A DNA stretch of 50,047 nucleotides. Source: Thermoplasmata archaeon (GTDB lineage: Archaea; Thermoplasmatota; DTKX01; VGTL01). Position 1 is the first letter of the stretch. Each line of letters begins with the position of its first letter. Below are positions 21,606 to 31,406 of this stretch, one piece after another. The notes beneath the pieces are model-generated. The model did not search any database. It had not been told where the DNA came from and worked only from the letters and a program-made list of their open reading frames with translations. A program made the translations under genes and the position numbers. The stretch is from contig JAWCLH010000021.1 of assembly GCA_038851035.1 (NCBI GenBank), positions 1 to 50,047 of the forward strand, given 5' to 3'.

Positions 21606-24600
21606 ATGAAGAAGAAGAGTTCACTATCGAGAATCGGAGCGATCTACCCAGTTCTTTTGCTAGCTGGGTCGCTGCTTTGCCCATTCGTCCCGGGCGGAGG
21701 AGGAATGCGCGGCCCGGGCCTAGATGTCTCTGTCCTCGGCTTCTCCAACATCAAGGATCTTGACGACCCCGGTTTTCAGAAGCCCTACCCCACGGGACAG
21801 ACCAGCGTGAGGGTGAACGTGAAGAACACCGGGGATACCGCGACCTCGGCATTTGAGGTGAATATCGAGGTGGCGTATAACGATACAAATAGAACAGTCT
21901 TCTATGCTGACGCTGAGGGAGCCTCGATGCCGCCCGGCTGGACGGTCCGCGACTTCACCACCGGCAGATGGCATGTCACGAACAGGACCTGCTACTCCGC
22001 AACACACTCCGCCGGGTGCATCGGAGAGGGGCAGGCGGCAATTCAGTACGCTTCCAACTGGGAGGAGGCTCTGGAGAGCGCCGTGTCGATTTCCGTGCCG
22101 ACCGGGAGCCCGGTGCTGAACTTCAGGCACCGCTACGCCACCGCCGTGAGCCAGGACGGGGGCTATATTGAGATAAAGAACGGAACCGGTGAGTGGGAGA
22201 GAGAGGGCCCTGAGACCTGGAGCTTCAACACCCCGGGTTACAACACCGTCACCGCCCCCATCAATCCGATATCGAAAGACGTTCCCTGCTTCGGGGGTGA
22301 CAGCCATGGCTGGCTCTTCACGAGCGCTGACCTTAGTAAGTACGCGGGCTACAGTATCAAGATTCGATTCGTATTCAGCAGCAGCGGGACTTTCATAAGC
22401 CCGGATGGTGTCAGCGGCTGGTACATAGACGATGTGGAGGTTACCAACGGCATCGAGACGCCGTTCAAGGACGATTTCGAGTCTGGTCTGGGGAAGTGGA
22501 CGCCCAGAAACCTAAGGACGCTCGACGGCCCGGGAGGAGGGGTGGGCACTTCCTGGAACGTCTTCACGGACACGAGCCCGCCTTACAATCTCTCAAGCAC
22601 AAAATGCTTCTCCAATCGGAACCAGACCACAAACCAGTACGCCGATGGGGAGGACTCTGCATTGATATCGCCGCCGATTCAGCTCGCGGGCTTTACCCAC
22701 GCCCGCCTCTACTTCCAGAGCAAGATGCAGTCTGCGGGCGCGTGCGACGGCGGCTTCGTTGAGCTCCAGAGCGGCGCCGGGGAATGGGTGTACCTCAAGC
22801 CCTTCATGATGGAGTATGGGAACACGCTGGACTCCGGATCGCCCTATGGCAACATCGGGGGCTACAGCGGAATGAACCCCGGAGGCAACTGGCTTCGCGC
22901 GACGTTTGACCTGACCCCCTACGTGGGCACGACGGTGAAAATCAGGTTCCACTTCTATGCAAAGGAGGGCTCCCAGAGGAGTCAAGGGTGGCACATCGAC
23001 GAGATCACCGTCGTGGCCTGGAAGCTAGTCAACAAGGACCAGAAGAAAGTTCAGATTCAGCCGATGAGTGTGGGGGCGTCGGACACTGCCTCTGCGGTTT
23101 TCGACCTCGCCCAGCCGGGCTATTATGGACTAAGAGCGACAGCCCTGCTCCCCGGCGACACGGTCCCCTCTAACGATATATCCTACCTGCTCATCCGTGT
23201 CGAGAATGACTTCTCATTCAGAATGGAGCTCGGGACGAGCATGCCCGTGGAGATTATCCATGGAAGGAAAGGGGAGCTAGGCATAACACTAACCAACACC
23301 GGCAATACCGCGAATGAGGTGAACCTCACCATTTCGAATCCACCACAGGCTTGGATGATAAACCTCAGCAAGCCCAACCCGATATTCCTGACCTCTGGTA
23401 GCCAGATCAGCGTCCGTATGGATATTTTCGTCCCACTAGCAGAGAAGAGCGGTTCCTACAGCTTCAGGCTCAACGGGACTTCGAACAGAGACCCGACAAG
23501 GACGGAGGAGCGGGAGATACTGGTTCACGTGGTCAACCACCCCCCCACCGCCGTGCCGGGCCCGAAGAGAACCACGCGGGTTTACGCACCCGTAATGTTT
23601 GACGGCTCAGCCTCCAGCGACCCAGACGGCGACGAGCTCTTCTTCTCATGGGATTTCGGCGACGGAACCACCGCCACTGGGATGAAGGTCAACCACACAT
23701 ACACGCGTGCCGGGAGCTACAACGTCACCCTGAATGTTTCGGATGGGGGCCAGGGCTCGTGGAGCGTTGCCAGCACTGAAGTTGAGGTGAGCGACGACGC
23801 CCCAATTCCAATAATCACCATCGACACCTTGCCAAACAACGGCACCTATCAGAAGGGCGAGCCAGTGGTATTCAATGGAACAAGATCCCTCGACGAGAAT
23901 CCGGGGCTCCTGCAGTTCGATTGGGACTTCGGCGATGGCACAGAGCATGGCACGGGCGCGGTGGTCGAGCATGTGTATATAGAGGGAGGGAAGTACGATG
24001 TCATATTGACGGTCACCGACCCCGCCGGCCACAAGGGGACTTCGGACCCCTACCGCGTGGTGATCAACAATCCGCCCAAGGCGGTTATCTCCTCTCCCAA
24101 GGACAGGGCCTTTTTCCTCACCACTGATGAGATTCACTTCAGCGCCAACGGCAGCAGCGACCCCGACGGTGACGAGCTGACTTATGAATGGCGCTCCAAT
24201 CTCATGGGGGCGCTCGGGACCTCCCGCTTCTTTAATATGAAGATAAATGTGACCGGAACACACATCATCCAGCTGATGGTGTACGATGGGAAAGGGAGGT
24301 CGAGCTACGGAATCGCTATGGTCACCATCGACGTGAGTGAGAGGACAAACAACCCACCCGAACTGAGCAACGGGAAGGTAGACCCAACCGAGGGCGACGA
24401 GCTTATCACGACCTTCCGATACACCGTGACCTACAAGGACGCAGACAACGACATGCCCCTGTACGTCCACCTCATTCTCGACGGCATCAGCTCCTCCCCG
24501 CACGTGATGAGGGCGGTTGACCCGCTCGACACCAACTGCTCGGACGGAAAAGAGTATGAGTTCATAGTGATGCCGAACACCCTACTCAAGGGGGCAGTCT

Positions 24601-25712
24601 ATCCTCACAACTACTCCTTCGAGACCGCGGATGGTCATGGCTCGGGCAAGGTCGCGACCGAGACCCGGGAAGGCCCTCTGGTCAAGTGGCTCCGGGACAT
24701 ACGCCAGGACTCGTGGAGGCCGAACGTAGTTCTTGGACACGTTTATCAAGCGGGCCCATTCCGCACTCCCCTCAATGGGGTAAACGTAACGCCGCCGCCA
24801 GTGCCGGCGGGAAAGCTGGCGCTGGATCTCTGCTTCGTGATGAACACCACAGCTCCCCCCGAGCTCTGGTACTGGGCCAACCTCACAATCCGCTACTCAA
24901 CCCTAAATTTCAGCAGAGTAAACGAGAGCACTATAAGAATATACTGGAGCGTCGACGGCGGCGCCTGGACGCCCGTGCCCCTTCAGGGTCTAGAGCTGGA
25001 GAGCCAGCAGCTCTGGATGAACGTCTCGAGGGCGAACGTCCGCGTTGCCATCTTCGGCGACCCGATTCCCGTCGCCCGACCCCCATCCCATCGAGAGGAG
25101 GGCCCAAGCGCCCTGATGATATATGGTAGCGTCGCCGCCGTCGTGGTCGTCCTTCTGGCTGTCGTAGCGGTGATAGTGATGCGCCACCGCAGACCCGCGG
25201 CCCCTCCGGAACCGAGCTATGAGGAGGCCTACGCTCCGGAGAAGGAGAGGGTCGAGGCGCCCGCAAAACCGGCCAGGACCGAGAAGGCCACGCCCGCGCC
25301 CCCCGTTGTTCCAGTAACGACCACCGGGGAGCAGGTGAAGATATTCCGCCCCGCGACCGAGCAGGAGGTCAAGGTCTTTAGGCCCGCCGAGGCGGAGGAG
25401 GTCAAGGTGTTCAGGCCGGGGGGCGAAGGAGAGACCGAAGTGAAGGTCTTCAGGCCCGGGGGGAAGGAGGAGGAAGAGGAGGCCGGGGAGGGCGAGGCTG
25501 GGGAGGAGAAAGGCGAGGAGGGCGGGACGGGTGAACAGGGTGAGCCGGTCCGGGAGGCTGGGGCCGAGGAGCGGGAGGAGCTACGGGACAGCGCTGGAGA
25601 GGGCGGCGCTGGTCCGGGCGAGGGCACAGGGACCGAGGAGGACCAGGGGAAGGGAAGGGAGAAAAAGCTCCCCGACGACGAGCTGGACAGAATGCTCGAG
25701 GAGCTCAAGTGA
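21606..25712 (+). CDS. Large surface protein with jelly-roll and PKD domains and a VKVFRP-repeat cytoplasmic tail
   Basis: The 1368-residue protein opens with a signal peptide (to about residue 35). Residues about 160-290 and 350-480 contain two jelly-roll domains of MAM/LamG type, each ending in a WYIDDVEV or WHIDEITV motif. Three PKD-type domains follow (about 640-900; SWDFGDGT, DWDFGDGT, then a divergent YEWRS copy). After another beta-rich region a membrane helix lies near 1170-1195, followed by Arg-rich residues, so the last 170 residues are cytoplasmic. This tail holds four copies of [EQ]VK[IV]FRP between bases 25330 and 25460, then a very acidic Glu/Gly stretch and a final LPDDELDRMLEELK. 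The GGAGG site fixes the start. The outside part is adhesin-like; the tail has no recognised family. Confidence 0.85.
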   Translation: MKKKSSLSRIGAIYPVLLLAGSLLCPFVPGGGGMRGPGLDVSVLGFSNIKDLDDPGFQKPYPTGQTSVRVNVKNTGDTATSAFEVNIEVAYNDTNRTVFYADAEGASMPPGWTVRDFTTGRWHVTNRTCYSATHSAGCIGEGQAAIQYASNWEEALESAVSISVPTGSPVLNFRHRYATAVSQDGGYIEIKNGTGEWEREGPETWSFNTPGYNTVTAPINPISKDVPCFGGDSHGWLFTSADLSKYAGYSIKIRFVFSSSGTFISPDGVSGWYIDDVEVTNGIETPFKDDFESGLGKWTPRNLRTLDGPGGGVGTSWNVFTDTSPPYNLSSTKCFSNRNQTTNQYADGEDSALISPPIQLAGFTHARLYFQSKMQSAGACDGGFVELQSGAGEWVYLKPFMMEYGNTLDSGSPYGNIGGYSGMNPGGNWLRATFDLTPYVGTTVKIRFHFYAKEGSQRSQGWHIDEITVVAWKLVNKDQKKVQIQPMSVGASDTASAVFDLAQPGYYGLRATALLPGDTVPSNDISYLLIRVENDFSFRMELGTSMPVEIIHGRKGELGITLTNTGNTANEVNLTISNPPQAWMINLSKPNPIFLTSGSQISVRMDIFVPLAEKSGSYSFRLNGTSNRDPTRTEEREILVHVVNHPPTAVPGPKRTTRVYAPVMFDGSASSDPDGDELFFSWDFGDGTTATGMKVNHTYTRAGSYNVTLNVSDGGQGSWSVASTEVEVSDDAPIPIITIDTLPNNGTYQKGEPVVFNGTRSLDENPGLLQFDWDFGDGTEHGTGAVVEHVYIEGGKYDVILTVTDPAGHKGTSDPYRVVINNPPKAVISSPKDRAFFLTTDEIHFSANGSSDPDGDELTYEWRSNLMGALGTSRFFNMKINVTGTHIIQLMVYDGKGRSSYGIAMVTIDVSERTNNPPELSNGKVDPTEGDELITTFRYTVTYKDADNDMPLYVHLILDGISSSPHVMRAVDPLDTNCSDGKEYEFIVMPNTLLKGAVYPHNYSFETADGHGSGKVATETREGPLVKWLRDIRQDSWRPNVVLGHVYQAGPFRTPLNGVNVTPPPVPAGKLALDLCFVMNTTAPPELWYWANLTIRYSTLNFSRVNESTIRIYWSVDGGAWTPVPLQGLELESQQLWMNVSRANVRVAIFGDPIPVARPPSHREEGPSALMIYGSVAAVVVVLLAVVAVIVMRHRRPAAPPEPSYEEAYAPEKERVEAPAKPARTEKATPAPPVVPVTTTGEQVKIFRPATEQEVKVFRPAEAEEVKVFRPGGEGETEVKVFRPGGKEEEEEAGEGEAGEEKGEEGGTGEQGEPVREAGAEEREELRDSAGEGGAGPGEGTGTEEDQGKGREKKLPDDELDRMLEELK

Positions 25713-25737: not shown

Positions 25738-27318
25738 TCAGACCGGCGTCCTTTTCCTCCGGAGCCCCCCGATTTTCCAGACCCTGAAGGCCACCAAGAG
25801 CGCCAGAGAGGCCGCAACCGCTCCGGCCACCCAGAGAATTCCGGGGCCCGAGGCAATCCCACGAGGTCCAGTGAAGGGTACGGTGAAGCAAGTTTCGTAA
25901 ATGAGGGAGCTCTTATTTCCGAAGAGAGCCCTGGCCTCGAGAGTGTGGTTGCCCTCGGCCAGCCCATTGAGTTCGAGAGACCAGTTGCCGAAGGGGCCGT
26001 TCCCTAGGCGCAGGGGTCTCCACGCGCCGCCGTCGATTCTGGCCTCGGCCCTCTCGAGCTCCCCGTATCTATTCCAAGCGAGTCCCCGCGCCCTCGCCAC
26101 CCGACCTTCGACAGTGACGCTTGTAACGAAGCACTGGAGGCCGGTGTCAACCCTTTCAACGTCACGCGTCCTCTCAGCCATTCTGACTGCCCTATAGGCA
26201 TCGACTATCCCCCATCCGTACTCCCTGTTCCAGAAGGGGTCGAGGTCTGGGGCAGAGGGCTCCCCCCTCCTCTCTGCGGTGGCCCTGAGAATCTCCCTGG
26301 CGACCGCCGGGCTGAGTTCGGGGTTCGCCTCCAGCATCAGGGCGACGATGCCAGCGACGAGCGGTGTGGCGTAGGAGGTGCCGCTCCCCCTAGGCCCGTA
26401 TCCATTCCCAGAGCCGTCGCCCACTCTGTCGAACTCTGCCTGTGTGATGTCCGTTCCGGGAGCGGCCACGTCGGGCCTGAGCTCGTTGAAAGGGTCACCG
26501 TCCCCATTGTCCTTTCTAGGCCCACGCGAGCTGTAGTCCGCGATAACGTCGTCCGAGCGGTCTATGGTGTCTTTGTCGTCGGTGGCGGCGACGCAGATGC
26601 CGTTGCTGGCTGCGCTCATACCCCTAAAGCCGTCATTGTCGGGTCCGTCGTTCCCGGCTGCGTGGACCACGATTATCCCGGCCTCAACCAGCCTGTCCAC
26701 ACCAGCGGAGTAGGGGTCGGAACCGTCCGATGAGCCACCGACGTCGATGCCCCACGAGAGGCTCAGGATGTCGATGCCCCTGTACTCATCCCCCCCGGAG
26801 GGCCACTGATGGTCTTTGTGCTCGAGAGCCCATTGAATTCCCTTCAGGGAAGCGTCATAGAGCTTGAGCGGGCCCTCGCCGGGGGCATAGCCAATCACAG
26901 TACCGATTCTCAGGTCAACGAGCCTCGCCCCGGGGGCCGAGCCCTGGTACCTGCCCTCAGGCGCTCCGGTGCCCATGGCGATTCCCGCGCAGGTTGTTCC
27001 ATGGCCGTGGGTGTCGTCAGCGTCGTAGGTCCCATCGCGGGGCGTGAGAGGGGTCTCGGGCTTGCTCATGTCCGCCCCCCCGAGCCACTTCCCCGCGAGG
27101 CTGGGGTGGTTGTTGTCCACGCCCGTGTCCATGATGCAGATCGTCACCCCTTTCCCTGTGTACCCCAGCTCCCACGCAGTGAACGGACTGTACTCGGCCG
27201 ACTGTTTTGCCTTTGTGGCTGGGTTGGCGATGTCGGATGCAGGGACGAGTGGGGCGGCGTGGGTCGTCAGGAGGGATATCAGGGTCAGGGGTAACAGGAG
27301 CCCAGAGACACGGGGCAT
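25738..27318 (-). CDS. Subtilisin-like (S8) serine protease, secreted and membrane-anchored
   Basis: The 526-residue protein has a signal peptide, then an S8 catalytic domain with Asp64 (IMDTGVD), His106 (HGHGT), oxyanion Asn223 (AAGNDG) and Ser315 (GTSYATP). There is no long propeptide. A beta-rich domain of about 90 residues follows (CFVTSVTVEG to LIYETCFTVPF) and the C-terminus is a membrane helix (GILWVAGAVAASLALLVAF) with a basic tail, so the protease is held at the outer cell surface. It probably degrades external protein or processes surface proteins. A TATA-like box 26 bases before the ATG implies a leaderless message. It converges on the PKD protein gene with a 25-base gap. Confidence 0.93.
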   Translation of the reverse strand: MPRVSGLLLPLTLISLLTTHAAPLVPASDIANPATKAKQSAEYSPFTAWELGYTGKGVTICIMDTGVDNNHPSLAGKWLGGADMSKPETPLTPRDGTYDADDTHGHGTTCAGIAMGTGAPEGRYQGSAPGARLVDLRIGTVIGYAPGEGPLKLYDASLKGIQWALEHKDHQWPSGGDEYRGIDILSLSWGIDVGGSSDGSDPYSAGVDRLVEAGIIVVHAAGNDGPDNDGFRGMSAASNGICVAATDDKDTIDRSDDVIADYSSRGPRKDNGDGDPFNELRPDVAAPGTDITQAEFDRVGDGSGNGYGPRGSGTSYATPLVAGIVALMLEANPELSPAVAREILRATAERRGEPSAPDLDPFWNREYGWGIVDAYRAVRMAERTRDVERVDTGLQCFVTSVTVEGRVARARGLAWNRYGELERAEARIDGGAWRPLRLGNGPFGNWSLELNGLAEGNHTLEARALFGNKSSLIYETCFTVPFTGPRGIASGPGILWVAGAVAASLALLVAFRVWKIGGLRRKRTPV

Positions 27319-28758: not shown

Positions 28759-31290
28759 CTACTCCTCCTCGCTATCAGTGCCATCATAACCCCGGCCGGA
28801 TGGAGTCCCGCGCCCACCGTACGCCCTCCAGGCGAGCCAGAGACCGAGAGCCGTCATTCCGATGGCCGCGAGCAGACTCGCTATCGGGACCAAGTCCAAT
28901 GCCCGACCCTCGTCGGTTGCGAGAAAAACATAGGTCGATGCCGTGGCGCGGTTCCCGCACCTGTCGAACGCCCTCACCACGATCGTGTTATTGCCGGGCG
29001 CAAGCGCCACGGTGCCCGACCACACTTCTCCCGTGAGCACGCACCTTTTCCATCCCCTCCCGCTCCTCGATACTTCGACGCATTCAATTCCGGAAGGGTC
29101 ACGGACGATTCCTGAGACCACCACCCTCCCCTCGCCCACCCTGAGCCCGGGTGAAGGGTTGAGAATTTCCAGCTCGGGTGGCGTCGTATCCGGCGGCGGG
29201 GGCTCGTAGAGGACCCAGAGTTCAAGAGCGGCGGTGTTGCCCGCGCGGTCCGCAGCCCTCACGCGGATGATGTTCCATCCGATGGATAGGTTAAGCGCAC
29301 AGCTCCAGCTCTCCGCCCCCTCGGCTGCTACCCAGACGGCTCCATCCAGAGACAGCTGGACGCTTGAGACGCCGCTTGGGTCACGAGCCCGCCCAATTAC
29401 TGTCACCTGACTCAGCCCGAGAGCAGAGCCGTTGGTTGGGTAAAGAACCTCTATCACGGGCGGCGAGAGGTCCGGGCGCCTGATGAAAACGACCAGTGAA
29501 GTCTCGGCCTGATTACCGAGCGTGTCCCTCGCCCTTATATACACTTTGGCGGTGCCCTCCATCAGAGCCACGAGAGTCCGCCAGCTCTCATTACCCTCGC
29601 ATCGGGTCCAGTTCCGCCGATCCGCGCTGACTTCAACAAGAGCCACCCCGTGGGGGTCGGAGCACTCCCCTTCGACCGGAATGACCACTTCGGCATGCTC
29701 GGAGAAGGGCGCGGGCGAGAGAATTCTGATGGTCGGCGGGAGCGTGTCGCGAACCACGAGCAGCTCGCTGCGAGCGGAGTTGCCAACCCCGTCCACTGCC
29801 TCGACGAGGGCTCGGTTCTCGCCCTCGCTCTCGAGGGACCACACTAGCTCGAGGGGAGTGTTGGGCTCGAAGGCCTCAAGACGGGCGCCGTTAAAAAAGA
29901 GGGATTGTCCATCGGAGGTTATTCGGACCGTCACATTCAGGGAGGAGGTCAGGTGACCCGGCGGTGGCCAGACATCGAGCGATGGGGGGGTGAGGTCTAT
30001 GGTGAAGAGTGCGACCGCCCTCCCCATATTTCTCCAAAGGTCCCATGCCCGGACCTCGAGCATATGGTCCCCCTCCCTTAGGTTCTCGAGTCTCAGGGAC
30101 CATTCCCGCGTCCCCTCCGCCGGAGCCCAGTCACCTCCGTCAAGCGAAACTTCGACAAGCGCAACGCCCGCTTCCCCCGTCCTCTCTAGCCTGTCCAGGG
30201 CCCTCCCACGCACCGTAATTTGTGTTGCGTTCAGCCACGTCCCGTTTTCTGGGAAGTCTATGAAGACGAGGGGTGGCGTGACGTCGATGAGGATGGTAAT
30301 GTTCAGGGGTTCCGAGACATCACGGACGAGCCAGCTCTTATGGCCGCCGGAGTTCGCGGATATATTGAAAGGTCCGTGATACCTTACGCCTCGGTTGAGT
30401 ACTGTGTGGGAGAGAACCCGCGCTCCCCTGACCTCCCCTAGTTCGTCGGCCTGGTAGAGCTCCTCGGGGCCGTCGAAGGGGCGGACAGAGAGGATAGCAC
30501 CTGCCGCGGGTGTCTGGTTGTCGAATATTACTCTGGCATCGAGACTCCAGGCGAGCTTGAGGGCGCTGGATGAATCAGCGACGGTTACATCGATGGGGTT
30601 GAGCCCGCAGTCTAGGGTCTCGAGTCGGGATGAATTGAGTAGCAGGACCGCCGCGCCGGTGTTCCCCTCGAGCGAGCAGCGGACGAGCGAGCAAGAGCCC
30701 GCGGAAGCGACCAGTCCCACCACGTTTGCCGTGAATGTGCAGTCGCGCACCGAGAGGGGGGCGCCGACGATGCAGAGGCCCGCAGCCGAGAAAGAGAAGG
30801 TCGAGTTCTCTAGAAGAGCGCTCGAGGTCTCGATAACCGGGCCCGAGAGCTCCGGTTCAGTCGAGCAGGTCCCGGCCCGGGAGATGGTGCTATTTGAGAG
30901 AACAACGCTTGAGCCATACAGGGCACGGAGGCCGTAGGAATTCCCCGAGGCGCTGTCCAGCCTCGAGTTGTGGGCGATTAGCTCCCCTCCAGACTTCACA
31001 AGGAGACCAAATTCGCCCGGGGATGTGCAGTTGAATAGCAGCGCGGCGTTTTCCAATCTGAGGCACCCCCCCGAGCCAACGGTGATGTTCCCGCAAACCA
31101 CGAGGGTTTCGTTGGCCACCACCTCGGTCGAGGCGACTGTCCAGTCCCGGGGACCTGGGGTTCCCTCGGGAGGGAAATGAGGTGCAGACCCTGCGGAGAG
31201 CCCCCGGGCGTGGGTCTCCGGAGCCGAAGCGGGGGGTAGAGTCACGAGGAGGGTGAGCGCTATTAGGGCGGCGCGCGCCGTCATCGCCAT
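28759..31290 (-). CDS. Surface protein with beta-helix and Ig-like repeats, C-terminal membrane anchor
   Basis: ATG 31290 is about 22 bases after a TATA-like TAATAAAT, so the mRNA is leaderless; the product of 843 residues starts with a signal peptide (ALIALTLLVTLPPASA). Residues about 70-260 read as a parallel beta-helix with repeated short strands (NAALLFNCTS, NSRLDSAS, NSTISRAG, NSTFSFSA). Next come five Ig-like repeats of about 90 residues, each opening PP-x-[IVL]-x-[IV] and ending in a helix-free strand of the DRAGN type. The C-terminus has a membrane helix (IASLLAAIGMTALGLWLAW) and a short acidic tail. The message probably continues into the methyltransferase gene. The role is likely structural or adhesive. 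Confidence 0.85.
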   Translation of the reverse strand: MAMTARAALIALTLLVTLPPASAPETHARGLSAGSAPHFPPEGTPGPRDWTVASTEVVANETLVVCGNITVGSGGCLRLENAALLFNCTSPGEFGLLVKSGGELIAHNSRLDSASGNSYGLRALYGSSVVLSNSTISRAGTCSTEPELSGPVIETSSALLENSTFSFSAAGLCIVGAPLSVRDCTFTANVVGLVASAGSCSLVRCSLEGNTGAAVLLLNSSRLETLDCGLNPIDVTVADSSSALKLAWSLDARVIFDNQTPAAGAILSVRPFDGPEELYQADELGEVRGARVLSHTVLNRGVRYHGPFNISANSGGHKSWLVRDVSEPLNITILIDVTPPLVFIDFPENGTWLNATQITVRGRALDRLERTGEAGVALVEVSLDGGDWAPAEGTREWSLRLENLREGDHMLEVRAWDLWRNMGRAVALFTIDLTPPSLDVWPPPGHLTSSLNVTVRITSDGQSLFFNGARLEAFEPNTPLELVWSLESEGENRALVEAVDGVGNSARSELLVVRDTLPPTIRILSPAPFSEHAEVVIPVEGECSDPHGVALVEVSADRRNWTRCEGNESWRTLVALMEGTAKVYIRARDTLGNQAETSLVVFIRRPDLSPPVIEVLYPTNGSALGLSQVTVIGRARDPSGVSSVQLSLDGAVWVAAEGAESWSCALNLSIGWNIIRVRAADRAGNTAALELWVLYEPPPPDTTPPELEILNPSPGLRVGEGRVVVSGIVRDPSGIECVEVSRSGRGWKRCVLTGEVWSGTVALAPGNNTIVVRAFDRCGNRATASTYVFLATDEGRALDLVPIASLLAAIGMTALGLWLAWRAYGGRGTPSGRGYDGTDSEEE

Positions 31291-31308
31291 ATCATTGTAT
31301 GCGGAATT

Positions 31309-31316
31309 ATTTATTA
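31309..31316 (-). promoter_or_regulatory. TATA-like box of the beta-helix/Ig protein
   Basis: TAATAAAT on the minus strand lies 19-26 bases before the ATG at 31290. Confidence 0.5.
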
Positions 31317-31406
31317 GTATTGTCCATGCATCACCAAGGGGGCCGGTCCGGGGCCCAGCTCCAGCGGCATTATCCGGGGGGGCGGCACCAAAGCGCAGGG
31401 ACAAAC

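Follow-up and report, generated by a model that had tools for sequence, protein, structure and literature searches.

The PKD surface protein encoded in the window carries, in a tail predicted to lie inside the cell, four copies of a short VKVFRP-type peptide, followed by an acidic linker and a C-terminal amphipathic helix. Since the array was kept in an orthologue from a different genus while the acidic linker diverged, the comparison supports a selected array of short linear motifs in a cytoplasmic tail. The window—the whole stretch of 50,047 nucleotides that was analysed—is contig C21 of a Thermoplasmata assembly of 2.69 Mb in 50 contigs. Its PKD protein has an N-terminus that is hydrophobic by eye, and both of its PKD scores lie above the Pfam gathering score (PF18911, 155.8 bits against a cut-off of 27; PF00801, 95.1 bits against 23.5), which places it among PKD-domain proteins. 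Pfam also reports a MAM-like domain (PF20773, 49.8 bits against 26.9) and NCBIfam a choice-of-anchor J domain (38.1 bits against 30). An identity as GltJ (NCBIfam NF033761), suggested by a weak match that covers the tail and the membrane segment, was rejected at 18.8 bits against a cut-off of 450, the match being probably compositional. The features of the locus are as follows, all on the plus strand.

21606–25712, plus strand: ORF of the PKD surface protein, 1368 aa, ATG start.
About 25119–25181, plus strand: single predicted membrane helix near the C-terminus (AlphaFold2 helix), with RHRR directly after it.
25182–25709, plus strand: tail of 176 aa, net charge −20, mostly disordered by prediction (AlphaFold2).
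25335–25352, plus strand: motif copy 1, VKIFRP (V1244), in frame, preceded by Q.
25368–25385, plus strand: motif copy 2, VKVFRP (V1255), in frame, preceded by E.
25401–25418, plus strand: motif copy 3, VKVFRP (V1266), in frame, preceded by E.
25440–25457, plus strand: motif copy 4, VKVFRP (V1279), in frame, preceded by E.
25461–25670, plus strand: acidic linker, Glu/Gly-rich, without residue-order similarity to the linker of the orthologue.
25674–25709, plus strand: C-terminal amphipathic helix DDELDRMLEELK, LD-like (AlphaFold2, hydrophobic moment, conservation).

The basic RHRR cluster behind the helix, the distribution of N-glycosylation sequons (24 in the ectodomain, 0 in the tail) and the strongly negative tail together fit an ectodomain outside and a tail inside the cell; from the helix, RHRR and the sequons we infer a single-pass surface protein with an inside tail. 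The sequence-only reading had described four [EQ]VK[IV]FRP peptides at regular spacing behind the membrane helix, followed by an acidic tail with a defined C-terminal helix. All four peptides were recovered in frame, with Q, E, E and E as the preceding residues, and begin at tail positions 52, 63, 74 and 87; the starts are thus 11, 11 and 13 residues apart (33, 33 and 39 bases), so that the spacing holds for the first two gaps and is approximate overall. The acidity of the tail likewise stood, and the end helix was indeed modelled, although at low AlphaFold2 confidence. This run covered the C-terminal 434 residues with a two-sequence alignment and gave a mean pLDDT of 41.3, a low-confidence model in which the membrane helix spans residues 235–260 and the end helix residues 424–432 (pLDDT about 55–58), pLDDT stays below 50 across residues 268–421 and two of the four motif copies appear as strands.

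The array exceeds what the composition of the tail would produce. In 200,000 shuffles of the window tail, [KR][VI]F[RK]P never appeared more than once and appeared once in 140 of them, against four copies observed; the tail of the orthologue, also with four, gave 0 and 255 of 200,000, respectively. Both tails contain exactly four phenylalanines, every one inside a motif. A de novo measure of 6-mer repeats with at most one mismatch found four in the window tail, a value reached in none of 300 shuffles; in the orthologue it found two only (reached by 119 of 300), because the copies there have drifted. Codons differ among the copies both within and between the genomes (Arg as CGC or AGG, Phe as TTC or TTT), so that the array is not a young DNA repeat. 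The search for further proteins with the motif that the sequence-only reading had proposed came back empty within the host's own assembly: at the DNA level, a degenerate version of VK[IV]FRP, permitting Met and Ser as well at two places, hit five sites, namely the four array copies and one on contig C5, and VK[IV]FRP occurred in no listed ORF other than that of the PKD protein. The fifth site was discarded, as it runs antisense to a 301-aa ORF and falls in no listed plus-strand ORF of at least 100 aa. Against PDB sequences, the best E-value of the array profile was 0.4.

Conservation was assessed in G001, the one further member of the family among the genomes compared. Its orthologue (L027:5495–9577) shows 48% identity across the whole alignment (47% by BLASTP), carries VKVFRP, VRVFRP, EKIFKP and EKIFRP in its tail and ends in LDDLLDELNK. 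Variable, unconserved repeats in close relatives had been named in advance as what would count against a functional array, and G001 instead keeps the core four times. When the segments of the two tails were aligned, each against 2000 shuffles, the array gave a z of 9.67 (0 of 2000 shuffles), the C-terminal segment 3.73 (6 of 2000) and the N-terminal linker behind the membrane 3.81 (2 of 2000); the acidic linker of 71–75 residues, of which the composition alone was kept, gave −0.55 (1418 of 2000). Core motif columns are identical at 15 of 20 positions, as compared with 51 of 158 elsewhere in the tail, 29 of the latter being gapped (Fisher p 0.00035; p 0.0036 for ungapped columns). By residue alignment, then, the array and the end helix are conserved, as is in part the stretch behind the membrane, and the acidic linker has diverged. 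A search with the tail over 60 genomes including its own (E up to 10) matched 12 genomes at 21 places; beyond the window, the array was found only on contig C15 of G001, and a reading on both strands of the 20 places other than the window's own revealed no array except in L007. An array profile run over 389 genomes of the phylum (E up to 0.1) matched 13, with two strong matches—the window's own genome (G000) and G001—and all 11 remaining places, when read, lacked a four-copy array.

We consider it probable, with moderate confidence, that the disordered cytoplasmic tail acts as a docking strip, with VKVFRP engaging one partner multivalently and the end helix a second one. According to this proposal, the four V-K-V-F-R-P peptides, spaced about 11 residues apart, would dock several molecules of one cytosolic partner, or else a partner that has several sites, the plurality of peptides making binding by the tail multivalent. 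The alternation of V, V/I and F, forming a short strand closed by proline, could add to the edge strand of a β domain, whereas the amphipathic helix at the C-terminus may offer a second docking site for a partner of the helical-bundle type, with the acidic linker serving as a spacer. The sequence-only reading had drawn multivalent binding of a cytoplasmic partner, and hence a link between surface adhesion and the cell interior, from the repeats. The selected motif array on which it built is now supported; a protein partner, its multivalent binding, a role in adhesion and the connection to the interior are still inferences, drawn from the anatomy of the tail. Defined and conserved peptides of this kind can serve directly as bait for a cytosolic partner, and the array makes it possible to ask if contact at the archaeal cell surface is coupled to the interior.

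To place the array in a broader context, we compared five genomes of the class. In G002, which belongs to another family of the class, a homologue on contig C60 (L065:1197–5516) shares 29% identity across 1181 columns of the alignment (E 2e-101) and scores 410.9 bits against the protein profile, whereas G003 and G004 gave only partial matches to this profile. The G002 tail of 168 aa contains VV[DE]HDS three times, at tail positions 70, 80 and 95 (0 of 300 shuffles in the 6-mer measure), together with a single VAVWTP at position 53, which MAFFT aligns to the third copy of the window; V.[VI][FW].P arose in 157 of 100,000 shuffled tails. The expected conservation of the repeat number in relatives was accordingly borne out in G001, with four copies and the end helix, and failed in G002. 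With one VAVWTP and a different array in the latter, the four-copy VKVFRP array is a trait at the family level, seen by sequence comparison in two genomes, and the array motif itself seems exchangeable between families, VKVFRP in one and VV[DE]HDS in the other. A 219-aa protein of G004 (contig C202, L010:1492–2148, minus strand), with no match in Pfam or NCBIfam and without an obvious membrane helix, carries VKIWTP and VAIFHP in its acidic C-terminal end, EEEVKIWTPDSDGDGKVAIFHPEQDEEDQD. If this pair is real, the motif may be a more general ligand in the class, used beyond surface proteins.

As a control, 33 complete PKD-like ORFs were collected with a simple pattern from the fetched stretches, and 28 of them had a membrane helix and a tail: the window, G001 and G002 proteins plus 25 others. 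The strict motif [KR][VI]F[RK]P occurred in two of these 28 tails (window and G001) and the looser V.[VI][FW].P in three (the same and G002), the VxV[FW]xP pattern having been defined post hoc, with the sequences already seen. An LD-like end was present in four (window, G001, G002 and a G004 protein on contig C30) under a pattern that was also loosened post hoc, by allowing Ala at its first position so as to fit G002. Single look-alikes were encountered as well: RVFRP stands once in the ectodomain of another G001 protein (L018) and once in a 150-aa frame (L090), and a β-helix surface protein (L077:1–1626, contig C3 of G031) has a single RIFRP directly behind its membrane helix, before two CxxC pairs; without the PKD-like pattern, this last protein was not counted among the 28. 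The G004 pair and these single look-alikes pull both ways on the docking reading. Among the proteins examined, four-copy arrays were confined to the two orthologues. A further PKD protein of G001 (L135, contig C20) has a Pro-rich tail with PPRVVRTIP and PPRLVRAIP, a repetition not beyond chance (134 of 300 shuffles).

The end helix was examined in the same manner. Its hydrophobic moment was reached by only 7 of 5000 shuffles in the window protein, 10 in G001 and 83 in G002, whose homologue ends in EADDILADLLK. Without a stop codon, the helix pattern has five sites in the window's genome, the one C-terminal site being that of the PKD protein. DNA scans of the five class genomes for a C-terminal LDx[ILMF][ILMF]x[DE]L—followed by one residue and TAA/TGA, by two residues and TAA/TGA, or by two residues and TAG—returned three matches in all: the window protein, its G001 orthologue and a second, unrelated large G001 surface protein (L149, contig C1:28401–28433). 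Reversed-pattern controls gave 0, 1 and 2 matches, so that the number of matches alone is not significant; all three are nevertheless the ends of membrane-protein tails. The second G001 protein ends in LDDILNELEK after an unrelated Pro/Ala-rich tail, which at an E-value limit of 0.001 matched nothing in the other four genomes of the class. A PKD protein of G004 (L068, contig C30) likewise has a short acidic tail with LDDIIDEL close to its end.

These ends call to mind the LD motif of paxillin, for which PMC7703752 gives the consensus LDXLLXXL. Measured against this consensus, LDDLLDEL of G001 fits exactly, LDRMLEEL of the window has M in place of L, and ADDILADL of G002 deviates in two of the five residues that the consensus fixes. 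The likeness extends to a short amphipathic helix with a Leu-Asp start in a disordered region; unlike in paxillin, the helix here is a single copy at the extreme C-terminus of an archaeal membrane protein, with a putative binding role, and the resemblance is most likely convergent.

A second comparison concerns MIM1, the ESCRT-III motif recognised by MIT domains. The end helix is similarly C-terminal, leucine-rich and acidic, but it lacks the Arg of the MIM1 consensus. MIT was the one type of partner domain sought, and the five class genomes yielded four matches at E ≤ 0.01. The single match in the window's genome is a TPR protein (L145), so that the search for a partner domain proposed by the sequence-only reading gave no candidate there, and the two in G001 (L146 and L147) also resemble proteins of the TPR type. 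The fourth, in G002 (contig C54, L144:559–1839, minus strand), belongs to an AAA ATPase that matches MIT weakly at its N-terminus (17.7 bits, cut-off 30) and scores 198.9 bits for CdvC (cut-off 650)—possibly a Vps4/CdvC-like protein; no such ATPase was seen among the MIT matches of G000 or G001. The end helix may thus be MIM1-like, but the window's own genome lends no support to this. A local tblastn with this ATPase and the 219-aa G004 protein over 742,304 fetched bases returned self-matches only.

Receptor tails with arrays of short linear motifs are known chiefly from eukaryotes, where they signal from the surface to the inside. The tail described here resembles them in its repeated peptide, its predicted disorder on the cytoplasmic side and its diverged spacer, and differs in its archaeal host and putative partner. 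A more far-reaching idea, which we put forward as speculation and regard as rather doubtful, is that archaeal adhesion-receptor-like proteins recruit an inner scaffold through an array of identical peptides and an LD-like end helix, as an independently evolved counterpart to the focal-adhesion link, with the end helix retained and the array motif exchangeable between families. To our knowledge VKVFRP corresponds to no named motif; searches of open-access papers turned up no archaeal precedent for a tail-motif array, for PKD proteins in connection with Thermoplasmatota or for an LD motif, and for VKVFRP, KVFRP or VKIFRP they returned only work on sucrose phosphorylase, which is not on point.

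Other explanations of the array have to be weighed against docking. Were the VxVFxP strands to pair between neighbouring molecules, the tail could cluster the surface protein and a separate partner would be unneeded. The strand-like alternation and the two copies modelled as strands, albeit at low confidence, are what such self-association would predict; since long charged linkers separate the copies and the conservation of the end helix hints at one partner or more, we judge it unlikely. The basic and aromatic residues could alternatively clip the acidic tail to the inner face of the membrane rather than to a protein, in keeping with the K, F and R of every window copy amid an otherwise strongly acidic tail. 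Clipping of this kind seems quite improbable to us, given that VAVWTP of G002 has no basic residue, that the VV[DE]HDS array is itself acidic and that the G004 pair occurs in a protein with no obvious membrane helix. The array might also be a neutral remnant, left when a unit of about 33 bases was duplicated in tandem within a low-complexity linker, as the unit spacing and the composition of the tail would allow; its retention in a 48%-identical orthologue that lost the similarity of the acidic linker, the differing codons and the confinement of all tail phenylalanines to the motif already disfavour this origin, to which we give little credence. That the peptides are recognition tags for processing or turnover (e.g., by a protease) rather than for recruitment is highly improbable, even with a convergent subtilase gene adjoining the PKD gene in both family members, because the subtilase, judged by eye, possesses a leader as well as a C-terminal membrane helix, which would put its catalytic part outside, and because no subtilase was seen, by reading, beside the G002 homologue (ORFs of at least 150 aa, 7.5 kb listed).

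Docking thus stays the preferred reading of the tail. As to the surrounding locus, the subtilase gene (Peptidase S8) lies at 25738–27318 on the minus strand and is also conserved in G001, at 72% identity. Beyond it, positions 28759–31404 (minus strand) encode a surface protein with a β-helix and bacterial Ig-like domains, and an 867-aa protein is found in a similar position in G001 (L027:12509–15112).
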